The translations under genes and the position numbers were made by a program. Positions 7,175 through 32,326 of a stretch of DNA of 39,217 bases are shown here, piece after piece. Location: the NCBI GenBank assembly GCA_905479995.1, contig CAJQON010000041.1, positions 1-39,217 on the forward strand, given 5' to 3'. Position 1 is the stretch's first letter. The number at the start of each line of letters is the position of its first letter. The stretch comes from an uncultured Flavobacteriales bacterium (GTDB taxonomy: Bacteria > Bacteroidota > Bacteroidia > Flavobacteriales_E > Vicingaceae). Under the pieces are notes generated by a model. That model was not told where the DNA came from and did no database searches. It saw only the letters and a list, made by a program, of their open reading frames with translations.

Positions 7175-8224
7175 TTAGTTTGAAAGGCTTTTATCTAAAA
7201 TGACATTGTTTAGGTATTCAGCATCTTTTTTAACTCCACCCAACGTTGCAGATCCTCTTGTGTATAGCCAAGGTAAACCTAAGTAGTATAGTCCTTCTAT
7301 GTCACTAATTCCTCTAAAGTTTTTTGGATAGTTATCTTTATCTAATGCTACATTTTCAATCCAATTAAAATTAGGCTTAAAACCTGTTGCCCAAATAATG
7401 TTTTTAATGGTGTTAATCTCTTTCTTTTCAAATACAATTTTATCATTACTTGCATCCAAAGATCTTCCAACGCACTCTACATTTGGTCTCTTAAATAAAG
7501 TTTTAACGTCAGTACCTATAATTGGCTGTGTACCTGTGCTTAATTTTTTGCCAATCCAAGAGTATTTATTTACACTTAAGAAGCCAATTTTTGAAAACCA
7601 CCACCAAAGTGTTTTTCCTAAAAACTCTTGAGGAATTGATGAGATGTTAGTGTTTCCTGAGAAGTAAACTTTATTACCTGTAGCAGCTATTTCATCTAAA
7701 ATTTGAACTCCAGAATCTCCAGCACCAACAACTAACGTGTCTCCTTTTTGTAATTGATTAGTGCTTTTGTAGTTTTCACTATGTATTTGAGTTACCTCGG
7801 GCGAAATTTTAGTATGAAAGCTTGGTGTAAATGGAGTGTGAAAAGGACCTGTGGCAACAATTACATTTTTTGCTTTATATGTTTTGTCCTCACTATCTAA
7901 AATAAAATAATCATCTACTTTTTTTAAGCCCTTTATCTTTTGATTAAAATCAATCGGAATTTTAAACTTTTCAGCGTATGATTTTAAATAATTGGCTACA
8001 TCGTATTTGTTTGCATAATACCCAGTAGGGTGAGGGAAGTCTAAACCAGGTAGGTTGTTGTATTCTGTAGCAGTAAAAAGCTGTAATGAATCCCATCGTT
8101 TTAGCCATGGAGCTCCAATTTCCTTATTCGCATCTAACACTAAAAAGTCTTTTTTGTTTTGTGTTAAATAATAAGAGATTGCCATTCCCGCTTGTCCTGC
8201 TCCAATTACAATAAAATCTATCAT
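7175..8224 (-). CDS. Flavin-dependent monooxygenase, CzcO/YdhS-like NAD(P)/FAD oxidoreductase
   Basis: 349 aa with two Rossmann nucleotide-binding motifs: GAGQAG (8-13) for FAD and GAGDSG (167-172) for NAD(P)H. Between them lies ATGPFHTPFTPSF (125-137), the linker typical of class B flavoprotein monooxygenases. It is shorter than trimethylamine or Baeyer-Villiger monooxygenases (about 440 aa or more) and matches the compact CzcO-like group. It likely inserts oxygen into a soft nucleophile such as sulfur or nitrogen. First gene of the operon with the PLP enzyme and OsmC, divergent from an Lrp-type regulator. The ATG at 8224 sits directly before the FAD motif, so the start is secure. Confidence 0.87.
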   Translation of the reverse strand: MIDFIVIGAGQAGMAISYYLTQNKKDFLVLDANKEIGAPWLKRWDSLQLFTATEYNNLPGLDFPHPTGYYANKYDVANYLKSYAEKFKIPIDFNQKIKGLKKVDDYFILDSEDKTYKAKNVIVATGPFHTPFTPSFHTKISPEVTQIHSENYKSTNQLQKGDTLVVGAGDSGVQILDEIAATGNKVYFSGNTNISSIPQEFLGKTLWWWFSKIGFLSVNKYSWIGKKLSTGTQPIIGTDVKTLFKRPNVECVGRSLDASNDKIVFEKKEINTIKNIIWATGFKPNFNWIENVALDKDNYPKNFRGISDIEGLYYLGLPWLYTRGSATLGGVKKDAEYLNNVILDKSLSN

Positions 8225-8331
8225 TTAATAAATGCTTTTGTCTGTAAATTTACATCTTAATAATCTTTAACTATATAGATGTGAGTTTTAAAAGAATATA
8301 AAACTGATTTTTTCATATTTTTTAGATTTAT

Positions 8332-25431: not shown

Positions 25432-28400
25432 TTATCTTATTACTGTTACGTTACCTTTCTTAAAGTAATCTTGGCCATCTACACACTTAATGTCTATATG
25501 GAAAACAAATACGCCTGGATCGACAAATTGTCCTTTGTATGTACCATCCCAACCAATACTCTGTTTATCAGTCTCAAAAACCAACTCTCCCCATCTGTTG
25601 TATATCTTTAAAACCATAGACTCAACATTTTGTCCACGAACAAATAAAAGGTCATTTTCATTGTCTTGGTTTGGAGTAAAAGCATTTGGTATAAAGACAT
25701 CTGGTTCACCGCAGTTAATTTCAAAAGCATAAATGGTTACAGTTCGTGAAAAAGTACATCCACTGCTAATTTCGGTTAAAACTACTGTGTAGGTTGTAAC
25801 CGATGGAGGAAGAGGTGATGCAATAGGATCGGATATAGTAGCATTGTTTAAGTTAAAGAAAGGTGCCCATTGGTAAGTAAAACCAGTATTTGGTAAGACA
25901 TGGAGTTGTGTTGTTTCTCCGCTATATAATGAATCTTTATCTGCCCAAACTTGAATGTTGTTGCCATTGAAACCAGAAACAACAATTTGTGCGGTGTCGG
26001 TTGTTATACAGCCAAATGAATTGGTAGCTATTACGGTATAAGTTGTGGTTGTTGCTGGGTTAACAATAGGACTTGCTGTATTGGCACCACTAACAATAGA
26101 GCTTGTTGGTGACCAACTATACGTTAATGGGTAGTTGGAATGGTTTGTTAAAGCAATAGTTGTTTGGTCTCCCGAGCAGGTTGAAGTATCTCTTGCTGTA
26201 ATATTAAAGCCAGTATAATTTACTAAGAAGCTATCAATTGCCGAGCAAGGGCCGTTACTGGTCATAACATAAAACCAAGTGGTGTCGGTTACCGAAACAA
26301 ATAAGCTAGAGTCGGTAAGGTTAGGATTTAATGTGTCGGTAAATTGGTTGTTGCTCGACCAAATAAAGAAGGTTGGGTTTCCTGTTGTGTTCACAAATAA
26401 AGTAGCCGTGTCACAAGTTGTTAATGTGTTTCCTCCGTTAACCGTAATAGGAGGCGCAACAGTAATGGTTTGAAATGCAGTATCAACCGTATTACAAATA
26501 GAATCGGTAATGATTAAAGTTACGTTATAAGTTCCTGGAAGGGTATATGTTTTTACAGGGTTAAATATTAAAGAAGTGGTATCGTTTCCACCAAAATCCC
26601 AAAGGTAAGAGTCGCTAGAACTACTAGAGTTACTAAAGGTTACTGTGAGTGGAGCACATCCTTGAAAATTATCTACAGAGAATTTTGCTTTAGGTACAAT
26701 TTCAAAATCGAACTTAAAAATACCGTTATTACACCCGGTACTGTTGTTAACTTGAGACCAAGCGCCAGTAGTAGTAGGAAAATCATCGTTGTTTTGACAG
26801 CCAGCACAAACAGATTGGTATACAATACCATTTTTATCAAATCGACTAGTTCCTCCATCAACATGTTCTTGACTTTGATTTCCTCCAAAGTAGGTTCCGT
26901 ATAGCATGGATTGAGCATCTCGTTCTAATACAAATAAGTAAAAGTTAAAACCATCACCTGAGTTGGGTTGAAATCCACCATTGGCAAGAGATGTTGTAGG
27001 CATACCTGTCATGGCTGAGCCACCTAAAATGTTTCCTCCCCACCCGCTAACATATACATTTTCACAGCGGTCAACTAAAAATGCAGAAGGTGAAAATTCA
27101 GTAGCAACAGTTCCATTACCAAATAAAGTAGAATAATCTATCGTAGTTAAGTTGTTGTTAATTCGTTGGATAAATTGCCCACTACCAGGGTTTGAGTAAG
27201 TAGCATTAGAAATTGGGAAAGCTCCTTGAGTTTGCCCCACAGTATAAATACTTCCAAATCGATCTACTTCTATAAAATAGCTTTGGTCATAAACAGCTGT
27301 TCCCATAAAAGTAGCAGCAAGTATGCTAGAACAGTTGCTGTCAATTTTAGCGATGTAGCCATCAGCTTTTCCTCCCTGAAAAGTTGGTGTAATAGTTCCT
27401 GGAGTTGCAGGAAAATCATTAGAAGTAGTTCCGCCACATACGTAAACAATTTTATTGGTGTCTACCTTTATAGAATAACCAGCATCAGCATCAGTTCCTC
27501 CGAGGTATGTTGCCCAATCTAAGTTGGTTAAATTATTATTAAAGCGCATAATAACAGCATCTTGATGTCCATCTAAAGTATTGTCGAATCCATTAGGGGT
27601 GGGGAAATTACTAGACATTGTAGAGGAGTTAACATAACAGTTTCCATAGATATCTAACATGATCTCTCCTCTAAATTGATCGCTATAATTATTCATTAAA
27701 GAATCATAATCTACAAATGGATTCCCTGTTAAAATCGCTTTATGATTCATGCCATCATTGCCTGAACCGCCAATAAATGTAGAAGCTAAAAGTGCTGTTC
27801 CGTTTGAATTAAATTTAGCAATATAAATATCAGTACCATTATTAAAAAGAGTACCAGTGTTAGCTGAAAAATCTAAATAACTACCACCGTTGTAACTTGT
27901 GTCATAAGCAGTAGGTGTTACGGGAAAATCAATAGAGCTAGTAACACCAAACAGGAAGAGTTCATTGTTTTCGTTTGCAATAATGCTGTTAACAGTTTCC
28001 GTTTGAGTACCTCCTAAATAGGTTGAATATATGAGGTTGGCACCAGTAGAATCGTAACGAGAAATTACAACATCTGTGATACCTGCACCAGCAGTACCAT
28101 TAAAAATAGTATCATAAGCGCCAAGTGAAGTTGGGTATCCAGTACTATAAGCTGTACCACCTGCAAATAAACTACCATCATAACCATAGGTGGCTGTCAT
28201 CCCAAAATTATTGGCAAAAGAACCCGAAAAGCTCGAGAAAATTAATGTAGGGTCAATTATTAGTGGGTACTTTTTTTTGTAAGATTTTAATAATTTAAAA
28301 GAGATCGTATTGTTCTTTAATACAAACTGGCATGGAACCTCAATTTTAATTCCATCAATTTCTTGATAGGCATAAGGTTTCTGTTCAATAATTTCGTTAA

Positions 28401-28965
28401 TAGAAGTTGTTATATGCAAATTTCCTTCACTATCAATTTTAATGTTGTCTATACCATCGTATAAGAATTTCACATCTTTAACATTTCCTCCCGGATTAAC
28501 AATTACGTCATATTTAAGCTTGCTACCTAAGCTATATAAGGCTAGGTCAATGTTGTTGTATAAATTATTGTAATGAATTTGTTGGTAGGATAATACATTG
28601 CTTTTCCAATTTTTAGGGTCTTTGCCGTAGTAAAAGTTAGTATAATCACTAAAGCTATTTTTGCTGGCTACAGAAACATTAGAGTTAGCCTGAACAAATT
28701 CCATTTTAATGGCATGATACTTTAGCTTTTCGCTTTGTTCAGTTCTATGATGATCATGAAAATGAAACACATCGGCATTGTAAAAATTGTAGGTAAAAGA
28801 ATTTTTTTCAATAAACATGGCTCCATTGCCTAAGTTAGCTTTATATAAAAATGGAGTAGACCATTGTCCTTCGTTTTTGGTAAACCTTATGCCTTCATTG
28901 CCAGCAAAACTGCTTGCAGTTATAAAAGAGCAAAGGAATATGAGTGTAAAGTGTTTAAGGTTCAT
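25432..28965 (-). CDS. Large secreted T9SS protein: DUF7948-like domain, SBBP propeller, PKD and type-B C-terminal domain
   Basis: 1177 aa with signal peptide (ends ASSFA). Residues about 25-245 match the N-terminal domain often starting 'F-x-KNEGQW' (FTKNEGQWSTPFLYKANLGN). About 250-745 are SBBP/beta-propeller repeats (STYLGGTQTETVNSI, ATYLGGTDADAGYSI, GTYFGGNQSQE). A PKD domain lies at about 758-834 (GCAPLTVTFSNSS, YLWDFGGNDT). Ig-like segments rich in Cys follow, then the complete CHU_C type-B sorting domain (about 1083-1177: VFIPNAFTPNQDNENDLLFV ... KKGNVTVIR). It should be exported by T9SS and held by the SprF-like and OmpA-like proteins encoded downstream. Role is likely adhesion; ligand unknown. 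ATG at 28965. Confidence 0.94.
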   Translation of the reverse strand: MNLKHFTLIFLCSFITASSFAGNEGIRFTKNEGQWSTPFLYKANLGNGAMFIEKNSFTYNFYNADVFHFHDHHRTEQSEKLKYHAIKMEFVQANSNVSVASKNSFSDYTNFYYGKDPKNWKSNVLSYQQIHYNNLYNNIDLALYSLGSKLKYDVIVNPGGNVKDVKFLYDGIDNIKIDSEGNLHITTSINEIIEQKPYAYQEIDGIKIEVPCQFVLKNNTISFKLLKSYKKKYPLIIDPTLIFSSFSGSFANNFGMTATYGYDGSLFAGGTAYSTGYPTSLGAYDTIFNGTAGAGITDVVISRYDSTGANLIYSTYLGGTQTETVNSIIANENNELFLFGVTSSIDFPVTPTAYDTSYNGGSYLDFSANTGTLFNNGTDIYIAKFNSNGTALLASTFIGGSGNDGMNHKAILTGNPFVDYDSLMNNYSDQFRGEIMLDIYGNCYVNSSTMSSNFPTPNGFDNTLDGHQDAVIMRFNNNLTNLDWATYLGGTDADAGYSIKVDTNKIVYVCGGTTSNDFPATPGTITPTFQGGKADGYIAKIDSNCSSILAATFMGTAVYDQSYFIEVDRFGSIYTVGQTQGAFPISNATYSNPGSGQFIQRINNNLTTIDYSTLFGNGTVATEFSPSAFLVDRCENVYVSGWGGNILGGSAMTGMPTTSLANGGFQPNSGDGFNFYLFVLERDAQSMLYGTYFGGNQSQEHVDGGTSRFDKNGIVYQSVCAGCQNNDDFPTTTGAWSQVNNSTGCNNGIFKFDFEIVPKAKFSVDNFQGCAPLTVTFSNSSSSSDSYLWDFGGNDTTSLIFNPVKTYTLPGTYNVTLIITDSICNTVDTAFQTITVAPPITVNGGNTLTTCDTATLFVNTTGNPTFFIWSSNNQFTDTLNPNLTDSSLFVSVTDTTWFYVMTSNGPCSAIDSFLVNYTGFNITARDTSTCSGDQTTIALTNHSNYPLTYSWSPTSSIVSGANTASPIVNPATTTTYTVIATNSFGCITTDTAQIVVSGFNGNNIQVWADKDSLYSGETTQLHVLPNTGFTYQWAPFFNLNNATISDPIASPLPPSVTTYTVVLTEISSGCTFSRTVTIYAFEINCGEPDVFIPNAFTPNQDNENDLLFVRGQNVESMVLKIYNRWGELVFETDKQSIGWDGTYKGQFVDPGVFVFHIDIKCVDGQDYFKKGNVTVIR

Positions 28966-29069: not shown

Positions 29070-29099
29070 AATTCTATTTAGAATCAATCTAAATAAAAA

Positions 29100-29732
29100 A
29101 TGATAGATATATTAATTGCAAATAACAATCAAATTGCTGGAGAAGGGATTAAAACCATTCTTCAATCAAAGATGGGTAACCGTGTTTTGGGGATTGTTAA
29201 TTCTACCGAAGAGTTAAAGCGTCAATCAAAACGTTATTTCCCTGACTTAGTTGTTATAGATTACGAGCCTGACTGTTTTGGGGTAAGTGCTATCAAAGAA
29301 ATAAAAAAGATATATAAAGACACCAAAATTTTAGCGATTACAGATTCTTTACCGAAGTCTACTGTTCATTCTGCCTTAAAAAATGGTATTGATAGTTATT
29401 TGTTGTCGGATTGCGATAAGCCAGAAATAATGGAAGCGATTGCAGATACTATAGAGGGTAAGCAGTTTTATTGTGGAATGGTGATTGACATTTTATCAGA
29501 ACACAATGAATCAGAAGAAAATGGTTGTGCTGGTATTTCTCTTTCCGAAAGAGAGATTGAAGTGATAAAGTTAATTTCTGATGGTTGTACCAATAAAGAA
29601 ATAGCAGATCAACTCTTTTTAAGTACCCACACGGTAAATACCCATCGTAAAAATATTATGCAAAAATTAGGTATTAAAAACACTGCAGGTATTGTTATAT
29701 ATGCTGTTAAAGAGAACATCGTTAAAACATAA
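29100..29732 (+). CDS. LuxR/NarL-type response regulator with degenerate receiver domain
   Basis: 210 aa: a receiver domain (1-125) and a LuxR helix-turn-helix (148-210, LSEREIEVIKLISDGCTNKE, LSTHTVNTHRKNIMQKLGI). Asp54, the phosphorylation site, is present (VVIDYEP). The acidic pair that binds Mg2+ (normally DD after the first strand) is Asn8-Asn9, and the conserved Lys after the fifth strand is Ser103 (SYLLSD). Such receivers usually cannot be phosphorylated normally and may respond to dimerisation or a ligand instead. No histidine kinase is adjacent. It stands 133 bp before the porin, on the same strand, so it may regulate the porin cluster; this is inferred. Confidence 0.93.
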   Translation: MIDILIANNNQIAGEGIKTILQSKMGNRVLGIVNSTEELKRQSKRYFPDLVVIDYEPDCFGVSAIKEIKKIYKDTKILAITDSLPKSTVHSALKNGIDSYLLSDCDKPEIMEAIADTIEGKQFYCGMVIDILSEHNESEENGCAGISLSEREIEVIKLISDGCTNKEIADQLFLSTHTVNTHRKNIMQKLGIKNTAGIVIYAVKENIVKT

Positions 29733-29762: not shown

Positions 29763-29782
29763 AATACCACATTTGTGGTATT
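29763..29782 (+). promoter_or_regulatory. Inverted-repeat operator next to the porin promoter
   Basis: AATACCACA-TT-TGTGGTATT, a perfect 9-bp inverted repeat with a 2-nt centre. It overlaps the -33 TTG (29781-29783) of the porin promoter. No T-run follows, so it is not a terminator; a dimeric regulator site is the likely reading. Confidence 0.6.
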
Positions 29783-29811
29783 GTTCAAAGTTTATAACAC
29801 ACCTACATTTG
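29781..29811 (+). promoter_or_regulatory. Promoter of the porin gene
   Basis: -33 TTG (29781-29783), 20-bp spacer, -7 TACATTTG (29804-29811), matching the Bacteroidota consensus. Expected start near 29818, leaving about 47 nt before the ATG at 29865. Confidence 0.75.
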
Positions 29812-29864
29812 TCTTGTTATTTAAAATGAATCTAAATAACGTAAAAAAAGAAATAATAGGAGAA

Positions 29865-31076
29865 ATGAGAAAAGAGATTTTAAGTTTAGGAATGTGTATG
29901 ATGGCAGGAATATTATCGGCACAAGTGGTGGGAACAGATACAACAACAAATGCACCGATGAATTCGGCACAGAATATACTTTCGGGTAATAGAGGAAAAA
30001 CGATTACGATTGGTGGTTATGGACAAATAGATTATAACCAACCGATGAATGATACGGCAAGTGCAAATGGGAAGTTGGATGTACACCGAATGGTAATTTT
30101 TATGGGATACAAGTTTAACGATAGAGTGCAGTTTGTTACTGAAGTTGAATTTGAGCACATTAAAGAAGTGTATGTAGAACAAGCCTTTATTAACTATAAA
30201 ATATCTACACCATTTAACTTTAGAGCTGGTTTAATGCTAATTCCGATGGGAATTATAAATGAGTACCATGAACCAACAACATTTAACGGTGTTGAACGAC
30301 CAAACTTGGATGGTAAAATTGTGCCAACTACTTGGAGAGAAATAGGAGCTGGATTTACAGGGACATTGGACGGCTTATCATTAAAATATCAGGCGTATGT
30401 AGTAAATGGTTTTTTAGGATATGATGGAGGAAGTAAGTTAAGAGGATCTGATGGATTTAGAAAAGGGCGTCAAAAAGGTGCAGAATCAACTATTAGTAGT
30501 CCAAATTTTTCTACTAAAGTAGATTTTTATGGAATTAAAGGCTTGAAAATTGGAGCTGCAGCATATTTAGGAAAAACGCAATCGAGTTTATTTAATGGTT
30601 TGCCAAACAACGATACTTTAGGTTTGGCAGCTCAAGCAGATTCATCTGTAGTTGGAATGAATATGTTTGGTTTAGATGTACGATACCAATATAAGGCATT
30701 GCAATTAAGAGGGCAGGTGATAAAGACTGCTATTGCTAATTCTCAAGAATACAATTTATTTACTGGTAGTGATTTAGGTTCGTCAATGTTAGGATATTAT
30801 GGTGAAGTTGGATATGATGTATTGAGTATTTTTAATAAAGATGCCAAAGAAAAAGTAATTCTTTTTGGAAGGTATGAATTTTACGATACACATGATGCTA
30901 CAGAAGGATTATTAGATCAAAATAGCTCTTATGCTAGAACAGATATAACAGTTGGTGTTACTTATAAGGTAAGTCCAGGAGCAGCATTTAAAGCAGATTA
31001 TCAAATTTTTGATAATAAGAAAAAAGGAAATACACCTTCAAACCAGATTAATTTTGGTGTTGGTGTGTGGTTTTAG
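29865..31076 (+). CDS. Outer-membrane porin (OprP/OprO-like)
   Basis: 404 aa from the ATG at 29865. I chose it because a Shine-Dalgarno (AGGAG, 5 nt before it) and a signal peptide (MRKEILSLGMCMMAGILSAQ) fit; the upstream frame to 29775 would begin inside the promoter. The mature protein has GGYGQIDYNQP, VHRMVIFMGYKFNDRVQFVT, and the block GVERPNLDGKIVPTTWREIG seen in Bacteroidota phosphate-selective-porin-like proteins. It ends with the terminal Phe (INFGVGVWF) typical of barrels recognised by BamA. It is a passive outer-membrane channel. The nearby FMN-binding and membrane proteins suggest a link to an envelope redox system, inferred from position only. Confidence 0.92.
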   Translation: MRKEILSLGMCMMAGILSAQVVGTDTTTNAPMNSAQNILSGNRGKTITIGGYGQIDYNQPMNDTASANGKLDVHRMVIFMGYKFNDRVQFVTEVEFEHIKEVYVEQAFINYKISTPFNFRAGLMLIPMGIINEYHEPTTFNGVERPNLDGKIVPTTWREIGAGFTGTLDGLSLKYQAYVVNGFLGYDGGSKLRGSDGFRKGRQKGAESTISSPNFSTKVDFYGIKGLKIGAAAYLGKTQSSLFNGLPNNDTLGLAAQADSSVVGMNMFGLDVRYQYKALQLRGQVIKTAIANSQEYNLFTGSDLGSSMLGYYGEVGYDVLSIFNKDAKEKVILFGRYEFYDTHDATEGLLDQNSSYARTDITVGVTYKVSPGAAFKADYQIFDNKKKGNTPSNQINFGVGVWF

Positions 31077-31095
31077 TTAATAACCTTAGTTTTAC

Positions 31096-31125
31096 GGCCT
31101 GCTAATTTATTAGCAGGCCATTTTT
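31096..31125 (+). terminator. Terminator or attenuator after the porin
   Basis: Perfect 10-bp stem GGCCTGCTAA / TTAGCAGGCC with loop TTTA, then ATTTTT. It lies only 12 bp before the next ATG (31137), so it probably limits read-through into the FMN-binding gene rather than isolating it. Confidence 0.85.
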
Positions 31126-31136
31126 GGATTTACGAT

Positions 31137-31661
31137 ATGAAGAAATTTTTATTAATAGTAGCAGTGTCTGGGATTTTATTCTCTTTTGATTTACCTAAGA
31201 ATGCACTAAAAAAAATGGATAAAACTTTGGCTAGTCTATGGCCTGAGCAAGTTGTATCTAAATCGGAAATAGTTTTAAATCAAACACAGCAAGATAAACT
31301 GTCTTTTAATTTAGGGAGTAATACATTGTTTAAGTTATCAACTAAAAATAATCCGGTAGCTTACATGTATTTGTCGGAAGCAAAAAGTAAGATTAGTAAT
31401 TTTGATTATATGGTTATCTTTAAAGAGGATTTATCCATATTAAAAGTTAAAGTATTGGTTTATCGAGAAGAATATGGTGGTGAAATTGGAAGTAACCGAT
31501 GGTTAAAACAATTTATTGGAAAATCTAATCCAGAAAAAATGCAGTTTGGACATGATATTCAAAATATATCTGGAGCAACTATTTCTGCAAGAAATATAAC
31601 GCATGATGTAAAAAAGACGACATTAGAAATTATAGAGCTCAAGAAGAAAGGAATGATTTAA
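31137..31661 (+). CDS. Exported FMN-binding domain protein (RnfG/NqrC-like)
   Basis: 174 aa with an N-terminal signal sequence (MKKFLLIVAVSGILFSFDLP). The region 72-160 is the FMN-binding domain: AYMYLSEAKSKISNFDYMVI, then EIGSNRWLKQFIGKS, and the flavinylation motif SGATIS (145-150), in which Ser150 would carry covalent FMN through a phosphoester bond. The flavin is normally attached by ApbE, which is not in this window. It likely acts as a periplasmic electron carrier. The gene is 2 bp before the next membrane protein gene, so the two are cotranscribed. Confidence 0.88.
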   Translation: MKKFLLIVAVSGILFSFDLPKNALKKMDKTLASLWPEQVVSKSEIVLNQTQQDKLSFNLGSNTLFKLSTKNNPVAYMYLSEAKSKISNFDYMVIFKEDLSILKVKVLVYREEYGGEIGSNRWLKQFIGKSNPEKMQFGHDIQNISGATISARNITHDVKKTTLEIIELKKKGMI

Positions 31662-31662
31662 A

Positions 31663-32154
31663 ATGCAATTGCACGGAAAAATACAAGAGTTACCAAAACC
31701 TGCTAAGCTATTAGTGGGCTTTTTTATTTTAACCCTAAGTTTTGGATTTTATACCGGATTATTTTTTGTAAATGAGAACACAGAGTCAACAGTAAGTGGA
31801 GTAGAGGAGCATTATTTAGGGAATGAAGCGGATGAGGATGCGCTTGAAATGAAGTTTAAAAAAGCAGAGAAAGAGATAATTACCACAGTACATAATCATG
31901 TAACGAGTATGTCTATTATCTTTTTATTATTAGGTAGTATTTTGTTGTTAACCTCTATACCGAAAGGGTTGAAAAAGTTTTTAATAATAGAACCATTTAT
32001 CTCAATATTACTCACCTTTGGAGGGATATGGGTTTTGTGGTCAGGAGTGTTATGGTTTAAATACATTATTATGTTTTCGGGAATGTTATTAACGCTCACA
32101 TTTACCACATCAGTTGTATTAATTCTTATTCAATTGTTTAAGAAAAACGCTTAA
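31663..32154 (+). CDS. Hypothetical four-helix membrane protein
   Basis: 163 aa with about four membrane helices: about 15-38, 83-102 (IIFLLLGSILLLTS), 108-128 (FLIIEPFISILLTFGGIWVL) and 131-158 (FKYIIMFSGMLLTLTFTTSV). A polar, acidic loop (about 39-75, including EEHYLGNEADEDALEMKF) follows the first helix. His residues sit just before helix 2 (TTVHNHVTSMS), where a haem or metal could be bound, but no family motif shows this. It begins 2 bp after the FMN-binding protein, so a functional pair is likely, perhaps passing electrons from the membrane to the exported flavoprotein. Not recognised otherwise. Confidence 0.7.
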   Translation: MQLHGKIQELPKPAKLLVGFFILTLSFGFYTGLFFVNENTESTVSGVEEHYLGNEADEDALEMKFKKAEKEIITTVHNHVTSMSIIFLLLGSILLLTSIPKGLKKFLIIEPFISILLTFGGIWVLWSGVLWFKYIIMFSGMLLTLTFTTSVVLILIQLFKKNA

Positions 32155-32158
32155 GTAA

Positions 32159-32326
32159 ATGAGTACTGGAGTTATTGCCGCTATTTTTATTACAGACCTT
32201 GTTATTGCTTACTTAATTGGTAACTATCAAAGAAGTAATGGTTATACCTTTCGCAAGAGTTTTATTGGAGCTTTAATTGGAATGATTGGCCTCTCACTTT
32301 TGGTAATTAAAGCGTTTAGCGAGTAA
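32159..32326 (+). CDS. Small 55-aa two-helix membrane protein
   Basis: The ATG at 32159 is 5 bp after the preceding stop, and the frame ends TAA at 32324-32326. Helix 1 is about 4-20 (GVIAAIFITDLVIAYLIG), a polar basic turn follows (NYQRSNGYTFRKSF), then helix 2 (about 36-51, GALIGMIGLSLLVIKAF). The layout, helix-basic turn-helix, is common among tiny Bacteroidota membrane proteins. It is probably cotranscribed with the FMN-binding and four-helix proteins; no function known. Confidence 0.6.
   Translation: MSTGVIAAIFITDLVIAYLIGNYQRSNGYTFRKSFIGALIGMIGLSLLVIKAFSE

Follow-up and report, generated by a model that had tools for sequence, protein, structure and literature searches.

A conserved porin, FMN_bind protein and four-helix membrane protein of Bacteroidota as a probable Fur-controlled module for reductive iron uptake

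Clusters that pair flavinylated proteins with PepSY-like membrane proteins have been linked to iron reduction and are reported to be under Fur repression in Shewanella and Caulobacter (PMC8238504; this and the other papers cited are drawn on in excerpt). The locus described here lies in a stretch of 39,217 nucleotides, called the window below, which is contig C41 (CAJQON010000041.1) of the 3.1-Mb genome of an uncultured Flavobacteriales bacterium whose nearest named relatives are Vicingaceae and Flavobacteriales metagenome-assembled genomes. Its + strand encodes in series a NarL/FixJ-type regulator, a porin, a protein of 174 amino acids (aa) with the flavin mononucleotide (FMN) domain FMN_bind, a 163-aa membrane protein, named M163 in this report, and a 55-aa membrane protein. 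The porin, the FMN protein and M163 form a unit of marine Bacteroidota that is conserved across the phylum and is probably a Fur-controlled module for reductive iron uptake.

With the PepSY-like clusters the unit has in common an extracytosolic protein that is predicted to be flavinylated, ApbE and a membrane partner, and some of those clusters include a TonB receptor or the ferrous transporter VIT1; in the excerpted text, however, their flavinylated substrate is mostly DUF2271 and their membrane part a three-helix PepSY-like protein, whereas here FMN_bind and M163 are accompanied by a porin and FeoAB (PMC8238504). The DUF4405 and FezC cytochromes are, like M163, small membrane proteins with a link to flavinylation or iron, and FezC has been proposed to form its haem sites by dimerising, but these proteins carry several central histidines (PMC11334425), while the invariant histidines of M163 number only two, spaced two residues apart, and no match by sequence was obtained. 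The cyanobacterial uptake of inorganic iron follows the route that is proposed here, with porins admitting ferric species, reduction in the periplasm and import by FeoB, although its reductase is the terminal oxidase ARTO rather than a flavoprotein (PMC7676907). Proteins of the RnfG/NqrC type share the FMN_bind domain, but that of the window is not part of a six-subunit ion pump. In literature matches judged by title and the start of the abstract, with subscription papers outside the search, no paper was recognised as describing a porin-FMN_bind-M163 unit.

Conservation and components of the unit

Comparisons were made over the named loci, which are the best 80 of 272 M163-profile stretches in named genomes, and over 37 phylum loci, M163-profile relatives having been found in 38 of 395 genomes across Bacteroidota, the organism's own included. 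Named loci L035-L044 overlap with family loci L018-L027. M163 has the FMN gene as its direct neighbour in 73/80 named loci (74/80 anywhere in the locus) and 36/37 phylum loci (37/37 anywhere), little or no gap separates the two genes in 109 of the 117 loci, and a porin is present in 71/80 and 34/37, some of the missing neighbours being contig ends. Among the 12 closest loci M163 stands beside the FMN gene in all 12 and the porin is upstream in 11, one of these cut by a contig end. Within the family, 13 of 46 genomes hold both the FMN protein and M163 and 30 hold neither; two have an FMN match only, of which G007 carries a longer tandem M163 homologue and the other match is spurious, and one has only an M163 fragment with stops. 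The FMN match of G012 was rejected since it falls in an unrelated reading frame. A first scan of genome contigs with the FMN protein had returned no relative.

A sequence-only reading of the window had described regulator, palindrome, porin, FMN_bind protein and membrane proteins as one series, and every part is present where it was placed: an exact palindrome at the porin promoter, a porin, the SGATIS site of the FMN_bind protein, and a VHNH segment in a membrane protein predicted, as had been stated, to have four helices. That reading also looked to porin and FMN genes as conserved neighbours in relatives and to an ApbE encoded in the genome, and both were found. Its four-gene module holds for the porin, the FMN protein and M163 but not for the 55-aa gene, which occurs in just 2 of 14 related loci.

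FMN_bind (PF04205) scores 28.9 bits in the 174-aa protein against a cut-off of 22, and the best sequence match in the Protein Data Bank (PDB) is RnfG (E 0.0018). The published flavinylation motif is D-x-x-[S/T]-G-A-[S/T], with Thr or Ser as the acceptor (PMC12052999). The core of an ApbE substrate is present as SGAT in the window and as [S/T/A]GAT in 111/111 homologues of the 117 loci, 12 of them AGAT; the protein is a predicted target of flavinylation by ApbE. The organism has one ApbE, encoded away from the operon, and a second FMN_bind protein over cut-off, which we take to be perhaps NqrC; the presence of ApbE in this genome alone is therefore no proof that the 174-aa protein is its substrate. 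Stronger support comes from relatives, in which ApbE is encoded in the locus in 4/80 named and 15/37 phylum cases, directly 3′ of M163 in 9/37 of the latter, with 6/6 checked ApbE genes in or near the unit confirmed by Pfam, and from the association over the phylum, where ApbE occurs in 38/38 genomes with M163 and 222/357 others (Fisher p 7e-8, the genomes not being independent). In L178 a NusG domain II protein is encoded between M163 and ApbE (7500-8231).

M163 belongs to no family in the libraries searched. No Pfam family was over cut-off and NCBIfam gave only stray weak matches; PepSY, MsrQ, NapH, NqrB/RnfD, DsbD and DUF4405 profiles were found neither among the Pfam matches of 13 M163 members (E 1) nor among the NCBIfam matches of 81 (E 0.01). 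A PDB sequence search with the M163 profile gave nothing at E 1, and the L183 homologue of M163 had no match on plasmids. By sequence, M163 lies outside the known carrier classes. AlphaFold predicts a four-helix bundle, with a mean predicted local distance difference test score (pLDDT) of 91.7 for the best model and 78.2-83.7 for the other four, and Foldseek found no solved structure for this fold at E 0.001 or below (best E 2.1). VIA-align rows of up to Z 9.5, to vinculin-type and other helical bundles, fall under the level that counts as telling for bundles in that tool. G53, H77 and H79 are invariant in 121/121 aligned sequences; the two histidines lie close to where the second long helix begins, and would face the periplasm if the positive-inside rule holds. 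In L030 (8440-11218), which has a Fur box (18/19) and the palindrome upstream, porin and FMN gene are accompanied by a 317-aa tandem M163 homologue, the only such protein seen, whose first repeat by eye keeps H77 and whose second keeps H79, an arrangement that would fit an M163 dimer.

The porin has no Pfam match over cut-off, and its profile found nothing at E 1 among PDB sequences; Porin_O_P (PF07396) has no match in the window's porin and is over cut-off in the L178 homologue (27.8 vs 20.9 bits). The predicted model, made from 29871 and so without the first two residues, is a barrel of 16 long strands (pLDDT 82.5) which Foldseek matches to general porins. The start is most likely the ATG at 29865 and not an upstream GTG or ATG.

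Fur boxes and iron-linked neighbours

In an alignment of 11 family upstream regions the block GTTATTTAnAATnAnTCTAAATA was found in 11/11, and its core, which in the window is the site before the porin, agrees at 16 of 19 positions with ATTTAGAATTATTCTAAAT, the box predicted for Riemerella Fur, for which four promoters were tested by electrophoretic mobility shift assay (PMC5609570). With a match defined as at least 15/19 within 200 bases upstream, the box precedes the porin in 63/67 named loci, as against 11/335 shuffled porin regions; the former figure depends on the chosen start codons, L035 having scored 12 from an early start and yet having the box (16/19). Before other genes of the named loci it was found in 7/62 cases for IMPDH, 2/54 for an HMG-CoA-lyase-like gene, 1/40 for a LysE-like gene and 2/13 for ferritin. 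In the phylum loci the box precedes the porin in 24/34, a set with no shuffled control.

Within the organism's own genome ATTTANAATNANTCTAAAT occurs exactly at five places, all between genes. Two of these precede the regulator and the porin operon. A third stands in front of feoA-feoB, a fourth precedes an A-type iron-sulphur scaffold gene and sufB, with a divergent gene on its other side, and the fifth precedes the genes of a multihaem cytochrome and an iron-sulphur protein, a 141-aa gene being divergent there (gene identities by Pfam). Because of these neighbours ATTTANAATNANTCTAAAT is likely the Fur box of this organism, and we infer that its Fur would bind there. The perfect pattern at C31:14238-14256 (L227), before the cytochrome and iron-sulphur protein pair, which by eye is alternative complex III-like, suggests iron control of a respiratory complex.

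Iron genes are also found beside the unit. In L049, L061 and L064 (3/80 named loci) feoA and then feoB follow M163 about 2 bases 3′ on the same strand, and a FeoB gene adjoins the porin gene divergently in L090 and upstream in L152, which brings the feo-linked loci to 4/80 named and 1/37 phylum (Pfam checked for L049, L090 and L152). Presence of FeoB in genomes was read only from FeoB_N matches below E 1e-38, those at E 0.001 being uninformative (395/395 genomes match, presumably via related GTPases). Upstream of the porin of L154, L156 and L160 is an ATP-binding cassette (ABC) solute-binding protein (Pfam for L154 and L156), which we would guess binds iron, and ferritin occurs in 13/80 named loci. 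The commonest other neighbours in these loci, IMPDH (62/80) and the HMG-CoA-lyase-like gene (56/80), are taken as old synteny.

DUF6607, a word not met in the part of the literature matches that was covered, takes the place of the porin in L149, L029 and L059; HmuY and ferritin lie beside the unit in L149 and a TonB receptor in L059. The neighbour in L029 that resembles HmuY has no HmuY match in Pfam, and HmuY profile matches in L059, L068, L071 and L080, unconfirmed and possibly due to a shared secretion tail, were not used. In L073, where an imelysin, an HTTM protein and a TonB receptor precede M163, and in L088, L103, L110 and L112, an FMN gene is missing from the M163 locus; in 5/5 of these genomes it lies elsewhere, behind a DUF6607 relative and next to a divergent gene related to the L059 receptor. 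Boxes of 15-16/19 precede the stand-alone M163 in 4/4 tested loci (L088, L103, L110 and L112). The DUF6607 gene has a box of 15-17/19 in 7/8 upstream regions tested, L029 failing with 11, and the DUF6607 relative is preceded by one of 15-16/19 in all five genomes with separated M163 and FMN genes.

Promoter, regulator and surrounding features

The features of the window are collected in the table. Both Fur-box-like sites had been missed by the earlier reading, to which a terminator-like hairpin between porin and FMN gene is to be added.

Table. Features of the locus, with positions in the window.
Feature	Position	Strand	Basis
Fur-box-like site ATTTAGAATCAATCTAAAT	29076..29094	+	exact match to ATTTANAATNANTCTAAAT; 17/19 to published box; 5 bases 5′ of regulator gene
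NarL/FixJ-type regulator, altered receiver pocket, three conserved cysteines	29100..29732	+	GerE and Response_reg over cut-off; alignment
Palindrome AATACCACATTTGTGGTATT, probable operator at -33 region	29763..29782	+	exact; conserved upstream
TAnnTTTG promoter element, -7 element TACATTTG	29804..29811	+	10/11 upstream regions of family
Fur-box-like site of porin operon ATTTAAAATGAATCTAAAT	29819..29837	+	16/19 to PMC5609570 box; 11/11 upstream regions
Porin, predicted 16-strand barrel	29865..31076	+	predicted model, Foldseek
Terminator-like hairpin between porin and FMN gene	31096..31119	+	
Exported FMN_bind protein, SGATIS at 31569-31586	31137..31661	+	FMN_bind profile
M163, four-helix membrane protein, HNH at 31891-31899	31663..32154	+	predicted structure, alignment
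55-aa membrane protein, outside conserved core	32159..32326	+	found in 2/14 related loci

A shuffled window would hold on average 0.03 matches to the palindrome with two or fewer mismatches. The palindrome adjoins the -33 region of a promoter of the Bacteroidetes type, to which the TAnnTTTG element belongs as -7 element, and can be read as two TACC heptamers in the 7-2-7 layout of NarL sites. AATACC-N8-GGTATTG is kept in 11/11 family upstream regions and also in L030, and the palindrome, which is a probable operator, is found with at most one mismatch in 11/67 named loci, nine of these among L035-L044. Its sole other exact copy in the genome, at C5:777-797, is accompanied by a 50-aa reading frame rich in Lys and Cys and by a Fur-box-like site (C5:759-797, L224); Pfam gave no match for the adjoining 124-aa gene.

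The domains of the regulator are those of NarL/FixJ response regulators. A phospho-receiver is marked by an acidic pair and a Lys; here D54 is kept, N8-N9 stand for the acidic pair and a Ser where Lys is usual. Its three cysteines are kept in 10/10 aligned homologues, one of them at 37% identity, while the G041 orthologue has no third; homologues include L029 858-1505 and L236-L238, and a similar Fur-box-like site lies 5′ of the gene in 10/10 read, the window's included. The protein may itself sense redox state or iron. Orthologues encoded away from the operon occur in G044 (73% identity), G041 (51) and G007 (48), and in these genomes too the palindrome precedes the porin, so that palindrome and regulator seem to go together. 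Control of the operon does not rest on the neighbouring regulator alone.

The hairpin reaches -18 kcal/mol over the 60-base gap and has a T tail; perfect stems of at least 8 occur in the porin-FMN gap of 9/67 named loci, six of these being L036-L042. It may set a high ratio of porin to reductase. Divergent from the regulator is a gene (25432-28965) whose large DUF7948/SBBP/PKD product bears a type IX secretion tail; relatives of this protein adjoin the unit in several genus loci.

A proposed mechanism and its alternatives

Since Fur boxes precede the unit and feo genes are linked to it, the acceptor of its electrons is very probably iron. This refines the earlier proposal of electron transfer to an acceptor entering through the porin: a periplasmic redox role is probable, but expression should respond to iron and not to oxygen or to respiratory acceptors. 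From the loci we infer what the porin admits, that ferric iron is reduced and that electrons pass through M163. On iron scarcity Fur would leave both boxes and the regulator and porin operon would be expressed; the porin would admit small ferric species or chelates to the periplasm, where the exported FMN protein, once ApbE has flavinylated the Thr of its SGAT, would reduce Fe(III) to Fe(II) for import by FeoAB, whose genes bear the same box. M163 is a likely electron donor to the FMN protein, the simplest role for it given that no further membrane component belongs to the common unit; sitting in the inner membrane, perhaps as a dimer, it would re-reduce the flavoprotein with electrons that most likely come from the quinol pool, by way of a centre that the invariant His-x-His holds where the second helix meets the periplasm.

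Several observations weigh against this mechanism. Support for the module is wholly computational, comprising gene order, conservation, boxes, FMN_bind identity, the presence and linkage of ApbE and feo linkage, and shared descent inflates all counts, the genomes not being independent. M163 has just two conserved histidines, two residues apart, and no match to a known electron carrier. The Asp expected three residues before the flavinylation core is Gln in the window, where an Asp sits five before the Ser; replacing the motif's Asp had minor effects only according to the excerpted review (PMC12052999). No box is recognisable in 10/34 phylum loci, AT-rich loci among these, and the best score in the 200 bases before M163 of L073 is 11/19. 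When up to two mismatches are allowed, the own genome has 45 matches to the box against 21 for the reversed pattern, so that weak matches mean little; these were viewed in part, several lie inside genes and none was counted. IMPDH and HMG-CoA-lyase-like neighbours, with no known iron tie, outnumber ferritin or feo, and 3/38 M163 genomes have no strong FeoB_N match.

It is somewhat unlikely, if the best of the alternatives, that iron acquisition holds but M163 is a partner, an anchor or a handler of metal or haem, with another system reducing the FMN protein. The His-x-His and an acidic loop of M163 would suit such a role, as would its lack of a family or fold match to known electron carriers, the second FMN_bind protein of the genome, and the loci in which M163 stands alone with a box and the FMN gene lies elsewhere (L088, L103, L110 and L112). 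Weighing the other way are the joint presence or absence of the FMN protein and M163 over the family genomes (together in 13 of 46, both absent in 30), the touching or nearly touching genes, and a common unit that offers no other membrane component. It is unlikely that a ferric siderophore or haem, and not a small ferric species, takes the electrons; such an acceptor would account for the TonB receptor and DUF6607 of the variants and for HmuY in L149, but the common form has a porin, general by its fold, and no receptor. Iron-sparing redox, in which the flavoprotein would replace a cytochrome's electron-transfer task under iron starvation and iron would not be the acceptor, is improbable: the Fur boxes are compatible with it and flavinylation may suit iron-poor settings, as the excerpted text has it (PMC8238504), but the porin and the links to feoAB, DUF6607/TonB and imelysin would be left unexplained. 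Respiratory electron transfer to an external acceptor, for which the relation of the FMN protein to RnfG and the respiratory service of FMN_bind proteins elsewhere (PMC8238504, in excerpt) could be cited, is set aside as the main role because of the Fur boxes and feo linkage, no terminal reductase stands beside the unit among the matches listed in the loci read, and it is very improbable.

Reductive iron uptake remains the reading that we prefer. A bolder version of it, offered tentatively as possible but somewhat short of probable, is that M163 represents a novel, minimal class of electron carrier in the membrane: a dimer of four-helix proteins in which only H77 and H79 hold haem or another centre, and which would oxidise menaquinol and pass the electrons to a flavinylated ferric reductase. 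Together with the porin, the flavoprotein and FeoAB it would then make up a complete siderophore-free route of reductive iron uptake in Bacteroidota.

Iron management in Bacteroidota is described in the excerpted source as largely unknown (PMC9478572). If the proposal is true, M163 would extend the membrane components listed for extracytosolic flavinylation in the excerpts of PMC8238504 and PMC11334425, and one operon for a porin, a flavinylated reductase and M163, joined in some genomes by a ferrous importer, would make siderophore-free iron uptake in Bacteroidota directly testable.

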